Origin: Desulfobacteraceae bacterium 4572_35.1
Lineage (GTDB): Bacteria; Desulfobacterota; Desulfuromonadia; Desulfuromonadales; Desulfuromonadaceae
Direction: 5' to 3'
Assembly (NCBI GenBank): GCA_002084705.1
Contig: NBLX01000001.1
Span: 1 to 47,063, forward strand
DNA length: 47,063 bases
The notes beneath the pieces are model-generated. The model was not told the DNA's origin, did no database searches, and saw nothing but the letters and a program-made list of their open reading frames with translations. The position numbers and the translations under genes are program-made. Positions 5,312-7,703 of this stretch are shown here, in pieces. How positions within the stretch are numbered: position 1 is the first letter of the stretch; each line of letters begins with the position of its first letter.

Positions 5312-6171
5312 TTACTTCATGATGACAGAATTCTTGTTGGAGGTGCCACTGCCAGCAGCGATGTTGATGTTTTGACCAAAGCTCAAGGGGCTGTCGATAT
5401 CATTTACGGTAATACCTCTGCCCGATGTGACTGATACGCTGCCACCGACGCTGCTTCCATCTTTGATAATTATTGATCCCGAATTGGCTTCTGCGTGGGA
5501 ACCAAGAGCAAGGTTTACTGCTCCCGATTTAACTTTTGCTGAAAGGTTTCCACGTACTGAGCTATTTTCCACGATCACTGAGCCTAAATTTGCCGTAGCT
5601 TTATGCCCAGCAGCTAAATTAAGTGCGCCACCGGAAACTTTAGTGGTGATGTTGCCTCGTACGTAGCTGCCCCTGATTTTTGTTGTGGCCATGTTGGCTT
5701 CCGATCTATTGCCAACGGCCAAGTTGACGGCCGCACCGGCGACGGTGTTGCGGATATTTCCTTTTACTGTGCTGTTTCTTATGTCGGTAGCAGCCATGTT
5801 GGCGGTAGCTCTGTTGCCTGCTGCTAGGTTTATTGCTCCACCACCGACAGTGTTTTTGATATCACCTTGCACATTACTGTCGGCCATATTAACTGTTGCC
5901 ATATTCGCTTTGACTCTGTTGCCAGCGGCGAGGTTGAGCGCTCCGCCAGCTACCGTATTGGTTATATTTCCTTTGTAGTTGGAGTTTTTGATGCTGACAG
6001 CCGCCTGGTTAGCGGTTGCGCGATTTCCTGCTGCCAAGTTTAGTCCCGCTCCAGCGACAGTATTGATGATATTCCCTTTAACCGTGGAGCCCTTGATGTT
6101 GGTAGCTGCCTGATTAGCTTTAACTCTATTTCCCGCTGCAAGGTTAAGTCCGGCACCGGCAACAGTGTTGA
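5312..6171 (-). pseudogene. Out-of-frame 3' part of the secreted repeat protein
   Basis: This frame continues the same 35-residue repeat array but in a different reading frame from the signal-peptide-bearing part. It carries about seven repeats, among them NTVAGGALNLAAGNRVKAN and NTVGGGAINLAAGNRATAN, then diverging copies (NLALGSHAEANSGS) and a capping tail with INIAAGSGTSNKNSVIMK before the stop. The internal ATG in the ORF track (6037) is not a plausible start, because no ribosome binding site or signal peptide goes with it. The frame is open over 286 codons and the repeats are well kept, so the break is recent, an assembly error, or corrected by an unknown mechanism. Confidence 0.7.
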
Positions 6172-7620
6172 ATTAGCTTTAACTCTATTTCCCGCTGCAA
6201 GGTTAAGTCCGGCACCGGCAACAGTGTTGACCATGTTACCTTTAACATTGCCGCCTGATTTGCGCTGGCGCGATTTCCTGCGGCCAGGTTAAGCCCGGCA
6301 CCGCCGACGGTATTGATGATATTCCCCTTAACAGTAGAGCTTTCAATAGTGGCTGCTGCCTGATTGGCTTTTACCCTGTTACCCGCGGCAAGATTGACCC
6401 CTGCGCCGACGAGGGTGTTGACCACGTTTCCTTTAACAGTGCTGCCTTTAAGTGTAGTTGCGGCCTGATTAGCATCAGCTCTGTTGCCCGCCGCGAGGTT
6501 GACGGCGGCGCCGCCAACGGTGTTGATTGCAGCCCCTTGTAAGGTTGAATTTTTGCTACTAAATGCGGCTTGATTAGCTTTGACTCTGTTGCCCGCCGCA
6601 AGGTTTACCGTTCCGCCTATAATTGTATTGACTGCCGCACCTTTTAGTGTTGAGTCCTGCATAGTTGTGCTGGCTTGATTTGCCGTTGCTCTGTTGCCTG
6701 CTGCGAGGTTTACTGCCCCCAACGCGCCGATGGTGTTTACTGCTGCTCCTTTAATGGTGCTTCCTGTGGCGGAGGTGGACGCTTGATTAGCTTTTACCCT
6801 GTTACCCGCAGCGAGATTGAGGAAATTTTGACCAATAGCGGTATTAACCACAGCCCCTGAAACTTTTGAGTCTTGCAAGTTGGTTGCAGCCTGGTTCGCA
6901 GTTGCCCTGTTGCCGGCGGCAATGTTGAGAAGGTTCTGTCCCCCTGCGGTGTTGACGACAGCTCCCTTGACCTTGGAGCTTTCGATATTGATTGCTCCTT
7001 GGCGGGCGTTTACTCTATTGCCAGCCCCGATGTTGAGCAGGTTTTGAGCCGCAACAGTGTTTACCGTAGCGCCTTTAATTTTACTGTCGGAAATTTTGGT
7101 TGTTGCCTGGTCGGCTTCTACCCTGTTGCCGGCACCAATGTTAAGCATGTTTTGAGCTGCGCTGGTGTTGATAACCGCACCGCTTATTTTACTGCTTTCC
7201 ATAATGACTGAAGATTGCCCAGATTTTACCCGATTCCCCGCCGCGATGTTCAGAGCGTTCTTGCCTACGGCGGTGTTGAGAACTGCACCGCTGATATTGC
7301 TGTTTTTGACATTGACTGATGCCTGGTTGGCTGAAACGCGGTTGCCGGCGGCTATGTTGAGGTTGGTGCCGACCATGTTGGTATTGATCACTGCGCCACG
7401 TAGTTTTCCGCCGAGCTTGACAGAACCCTGTGTTGCATCGGCTCGGTTGCCGGCGGCCAGATTCAAACTTTGTTTGTCCATGTTGGTGTTTATAACCACA
7501 CCGGTCATGTTGAGGTTTTTCAGTGAAATGGAGCTCTGGGTGGCGCTGGATTTTTTGCCTACTGCAACGTTGATGTTTTTGTCAATCTTGTTAGGGATGT
7601 TGAGAACTGCTCCCTTTACT
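5430..7620 (-). repeat. Array of about 20 coding repeats of 105-108 bp
   Basis: Each unit encodes 35 or 36 residues with the pattern NT(V/A)xxxxxNLAAGNRxxANQAxxxxxxSxxKGxxx. Units in the N-terminal half are mostly 36 residues with NI(A/G)AGNRV; those in the C-terminal half are mostly 35 with NLAAGNR. Nucleotide similarity is highest between about 6020 and 6500, where the array has suffered the duplication and deletion. Units near both ends are the most divergent, as expected for capping repeats. Confidence 0.9.
6113..6230. repeat. Exact 59-bp tandem duplication
   Basis: The 59-bp unit 6113-6171 is repeated without change at 6172-6230, both beginning ATTAGCTTTAACTC. Since 59 is not a multiple of three it shifts the frame of the repeat gene. 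It spans part of one protein repeat (LNLAAGNRVKAN). A second defect lies 20-30 bp upstream in the gene (about 6246-6250), where about 19 nt are missing compared with neighbouring units. Confidence 0.9.
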
Positions 7621-7703
7621 GTGGAGCCAGCATAGAGGGTTGAGGTGGGAAAAATAAGTGCGATAAAGATAAACGAACTGACAACCAAGGATGCGATTCT
7701 CAT
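6144..7703 (-). CDS. Secreted repeat protein, possible beta-solenoid or amyloid-like (truncated by frameshift)
   Basis: I start this at ATG 7703, 8 bp after GGAGG, rather than the longer track start. The first residues, MRIASLVVSSFIFIALIFPTSTLYA, are a clear signal peptide with cleavage after LYA. The mature part is a run of 12 repeats of 35-36 residues built on NLAAGNRxxANQA, with a serine and KG about eight residues later. The regular spacing and small residues suggest a stacked beta-solenoid. The core GNRATANQ fits the curlin pattern GNxAxxxQ of amyloid subunits, but the repeat is longer than curlin's. After about residue 485 the frame is lost and 34 unrelated residues precede the stop. 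Repaired, the protein would be about 800 residues. I do not know its function. Confidence 0.75.
   Translation of the reverse strand: MRIASLVVSSFIFIALIFPTSTLYAGSTVKGAVLNIPNKIDKNINVAVGKKSSATQSSISLKNLNMTGVVINTNMDKQSLNLAAGNRADATQGSVKLGGKLRGAVINTNMVGTNLNIAAGNRVSANQASVNVKNSNISGAVLNTAVGKNALNIAAGNRVKSGQSSVIMESSKISGAVINTSAAQNMLNIGAGNRVEADQATTKISDSKIKGATVNTVAAQNLLNIGAGNRVNARQGAINIESSKVKGAVVNTAGGQNLLNIAAGNRATANQAATNLQDSKVSGAVVNTAIGQNFLNLAAGNRVKANQASTSATGSTIKGAAVNTIGALGAVNLAAGNRATANQASTTMQDSTLKGAAVNTIIGGTVNLAAGNRVKANQAAFSSKNSTLQGAAINTVGGAAVNLAAGNRADANQAATTLKGSTVKGNVVNTLVGAGVNLAAGNRVKANQAAATIESSTVKGNIINTVGGAGLNLAAGNRASANQAAMLKVTWSTLLPVPDLTLQREIELKLIQHCCRCRT

Follow-up and report, generated by a model that had tools for sequence, protein, structure and literature searches.

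Curli subunits (CsgA/CsgB) and other functional amyloids are among the described systems closest to the protein encoded by the gene reported here, and the likeness would be one of working principle only, i.e., secreted tandem beta-strand repeats. The gene lies in the window, by which we mean the whole analyzed stretch of 47,063 nucleotides, and this is the entire contig C161 of a Desulfuromonadaceae draft genome (G000; 166 contigs, 87% complete, 4.8% estimated contamination). The window protein differs from curli subunits in its 35/36-aa units, in having no sequence relative in PDB below E 0.5, and in giving no match to the curlin Pfam model, which was searched at E 0.1 with the window gene and at E 1 with its relatives and the downstream part of the gene. 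No Pfam or NCBIfam family was found above cut-off for the repeat protein. For the N-terminal 388 aa, AlphaFold predicts an all-beta, solenoid-like fold (pLDDT 72, pTM 0.75), and a Foldseek search against PDB gave generic beta-helix matches only, with low TM-scores. The gene encodes a putative secreted beta-solenoid repeat protein.

When 136 genomes of the order were searched, relatives were found in six other genomes, and most of them are shorter. The short repeat proteins encoded beside a CsgG-like lipoprotein in other Desulfuromonadales (G009, G011, contig C33 of G013, G018, G038, and G135) share with the window protein the signal-like start, and their repeats likewise have the form S..KGAV.N......N.A.GN.A....S (E 7e-19 to 2e-45), but they have only 207-390 aa and belong to a conserved four- to five-gene locus that is absent at the window gene. 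In the loci read, their neighbours were a conserved small protein, a lipoprotein weakly similar to CsgG, and an LPP20-like protein. The conserved locus comprises the short repeat protein, a small protein ending GGTVRGDIIIIDESRGDKTQVVE, the weakly CsgG-like lipoprotein, the LPP20-like protein, and a small protein (L025 2889-6351 in contig C151 of G009; L024 23-3838; L022 2738-6846; L023 2703-6976; L026 1-3771), and resembles a locus for fibre export that is as yet uncharacterised. That the lipoprotein is CsgG-like is best taken as a lead: the best E value was 0.022, no relative of this lipoprotein was found in PDB, and the lipoprotein itself was not found in G000. The neighbours of the relatives suggest that the repeat protein may be an extracellular fibre or surface protein.

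The closest homologue is a repeat gene from another genus, in the MAG Desulfuromonadaceae bacterium ZodW_Metabat.6 (G013; JAFGXV01), and a scan of the named genomes for the repeat gene returned only the contig of this MAG. It shares with the window gene the signal-like start, the 35/36-aa units and their order, and a C-terminal tail that is closely similar, with identities of 66% in the N part and 72% in the C part. It differs in array length and in the nature of its interruption, which is a contig break within the array and not a duplication: the array is split over two contigs with an exact 72-bp overlap, and both halves are open. These findings show how difficult the array is to assemble, and that the gene occurs in an open form.

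Organization of the repeat gene and its reading frames

The features of the gene are as follows, in the order in which the gene is read.

5312-7703, minus strand: gene for the putative secreted repeat protein, with unit families at 105/108-bp spacing, open in three successive frames (translations)
7629-7703, minus strand: signal-peptide-like N-terminus (MRIASLVVSSFIFIALIFPTSTLYA), assigned by direct reading of the translation
6246-6252 (approximate), minus strand: junction of the 19-bp shortfall, from unit spacing and sequence (unit of 86 bp, neighbours of 105 bp)
6172-6230, minus strand: copy of the 59-bp duplication that is 5'-proximal in the gene (TRF and script comparison)
6113-6171, minus strand: copy of the 59-bp duplication that is 3'-proximal in the gene (TRF and script comparison)
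6144-6146, minus strand: TAA ending the frame entered from the start codon (translation)
5312-6171, minus strand: downstream open frame of 286 codons (translation; constrained, pN/pS 0.20 against the G013 homologue)

The signal-like N-terminus is followed by about 20 imperfect 35/36-aa units, with a length of 108 bp through much of the first half and of 105 bp throughout the second. The initial annotation had described an array that is open in three frames in succession, and the translations bear this out: the first frame runs from the start codon at 7703 through 'ANQAAMLKVTWSTLLPVPDLTLQREIELKLIQHCCRCRT' to the TAA at 6146-6144, the second is coding-like at about 6250-6172, and the third continues from 6171 to the stop at 5312 without interruption. 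The reported intactness of this last frame over 286 codons was likewise confirmed. When the downstream 855 nt were shuffled 2000 times, an in-frame stop arose in every case (stop-free, 0/2000), and chance thus does not explain the open downstream frame.

The exact 59-bp duplication and the missing piece of about 19 bp, to which the frame shifts had been traced, were both recovered. TRF detected a single array at 6113-6230 (period 59, 2.0 copies, 100% match), and a script comparison found 6113-6171 identical to 6172-6230. The run of matches at period 59 is exactly 59 (59/59), and neither flank adds a matching base; the junction thus lacks microhomology. It is the sole exact tandem array of this kind in the 47-kb window, and a chance origin of the exact tandem copy is far too improbable to consider. 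Across the site the unit spacings are 105, 59, 86, and 105 bp, and the unit of 86 bp instead of 105 lacks exactly 19 bp, with the junction at approximately 6246-6252. Loss or gain of a whole unit was also considered and rejected, because the unit types alternate without a break around the site.

Depending on the frame, the 59-mer reads NTVAGAGL.. or STLLPVPD.., both of them open, or QHCCRCRT*, which ends in a stop. When translation arrives from the upstream frame, the first copy gives STLLPV.., the second QHCC.. with the stop, and a third would give NTVAG... Since the second copy is read as QHCC.., any array of at least two copies always reaches the stop, and a single copy places the downstream part out of frame.

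Comparable duplications in the draft assembly

We surveyed exact two-copy tandem duplications in 100 further stretches of the draft, which amounted to 1.12 Mb including the window. The class of exact two-copy tandem duplications of at least 40 bp, with at most 1 bp of extra match, had three members: the 59-bp duplication of the window and two of 44 bp, at L052 166-254 (contig C10) and L150 15227-15315 (contig C77). The former 44-bp copy is located 166 bp from the contig end and breaks an SSF symporter gene (Pfam), which in relatives is a single long frame, of 540-585 aa in most congeners (495 in one) versus 425 here. The latter breaks a DctM-type TRAP permease gene (Pfam), again a single long frame in relatives, where the closest homologues have 707-740 aa versus 593 here.

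At L090 104-324 (contig C28), 13 N are flanked on either side by an identical, exact 104-bp sequence, which looks like a scaffold join where the overlap was retained twice. The modal exact overlap between contig ends of the draft is also 104 bp; together with the 104-bp copies around the gap, this makes unmerged overlaps directly visible in the draft. The sizes 44, 59, and 104 equal 45-1, 60-1, and 105-1, and a k series of step 15 was derived post hoc from these sizes, so that the match with k-1 overlaps of a multi-k de Bruijn assembler of step 15 was recognized after the fact. Outside this series are an exact 28-bp tandem copy in an intergenic region (L030 10821-10876) and an exact 21-bp tandem copy, a multiple of three, near a contig end (L063 189-230). 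A 400-kb control drawn from two complete congeners contained no such duplication, which is weak evidence in that only about one would be expected at the rate of the draft. In the literature on assembler settings, we found IDBA-UD studies with a maxk of 105 or a step of 15, none of them attributable to this genome.

Origin of the frame break

The initial annotation had offered slippage-based phase variation, a recent mutation, or an assembly fault as causes. Of these, the assembly fault is now the best supported, by the other exact duplications in the draft and by their sizes matching the contig-overlap series; the recent mutation stays as a rival, and simple phase variation is contradicted by the frame arithmetic. 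We therefore think it probable that the frame break is an assembly artefact and that the repetitive gene itself is unbroken in the organism. In the proposed course of events, a short-read assembly of de Bruijn type would have broken inside the repeat array, and two pieces with a k-1 overlap of 59 bp would have been joined untrimmed, leaving the exact tandem copy. The neighbouring unit may have lost its 19 bp at the same faulty join or in a bubble, and this step is the weakest part of the scheme.

Several observations argue for an artefact. Exact copies of the same kind break ordinary transporter genes in the same draft, the duplication sizes fit the post hoc k-1 series, the draft is 87% complete and in 166 contigs, one of which is the window, the 59-bp junction is free of microhomology, and the closest homologue is also split by a contig break in its array with both halves open. 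In addition, purifying selection is equally strong downstream and upstream of the break (pN/pS against the G013 homologue, 0.20 and 0.26, respectively, with synonymous sites saturated). The downstream part is thus undecayed, so that either the break arose very recently or there is no real break. When compared with the N-flanked 104-bp example of an untrimmed contig overlap at a scaffold join, the window site is alike in its exact copy, the absence of microhomology, and a size that would fit k-1, but it differs in that no N gap remains and the 19-bp shortfall adjoins. We counted against an artefact that the site is not close to a contig end, that an untrimmed overlap does not account for the 19-bp shortfall, and that the 28-bp and 21-bp exact duplications misfit the size series.

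The two lesions need not be judged alike. Near the shortfall site, some units have an imperfect direct repeat at exactly 19-bp spacing, the best matching at 7/11 bases (unit at 6470), and a natural slip of 19 bp is therefore possible; the shortfall may equally stem from a faulty join. We accordingly rate an artefact origin higher for the 59-bp duplication than for the 19-bp shortfall.

A genuine and very recent inactivation, in which replication slippage gave both the 59-bp duplication and the 19-bp deletion and left a fresh pseudogene, is unlikely, though it has points in its favour: repeat arrays are prone to slippage, the imperfect direct repeat just described could yield a natural 19-bp deletion, and the intact downstream frame leaves room for a recent event. 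It requires that the frame was shifted twice within about 150 bp while the rest of the gene shows no decay, and it has to contend with a 59-bp junction lacking microhomology and with such exact copies in two conserved transporter genes of the same draft. If the break is real, the repeat protein, putatively an extracellular fibre or surface protein, would exemplify a fresh inactivation. It is rather improbable that slippage has just silenced the beta-solenoid array in a population that mixes lengths and frames through events beyond simple copy-number switching.

A special case of the assembly fault, and a quite unlikely one, is a chimera of strain variants: populations with different arrays would be mixed in the bin, and parts of two real alleles would be joined in the contig. 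The 4.8% estimated contamination of the draft would allow for it, and the middle of the G013 array is made up of 70-aa pairs that are nearly identical, a stretch of the sort that confuses assembly; but no second array fragment was found in the genome itself (G000), and a chimera does not by itself predict sizes of k-1. Finally, although exact tandem duplications can expand and contract and phase variation commonly targets surface or secreted proteins, switching of the repeat protein on and off by slippage in the copy number of the 59-bp unit is hardly credible and was rejected in its simple form, since no copy number of this unit alone links the upstream frame with the downstream frame, and the array has only two copies and no short simple-sequence tract (TRF).

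With an assembly artefact as the preferred reading, caution is called for where draft genomes contain short, exact tandem copies whose length is k-1, because these can mimic phase-variable or broken genes. Scans for frame-breaking duplications should first check whether the sizes recur across the assembly.

As a separate observation, a further repeat-rich open frame, with units like GAPVLGSPTIGQVHALDAVGITTG, is present in another contig of the draft (L109 1-900, contig C47), and includes an exact 61-bp repeat 414 bp apart.
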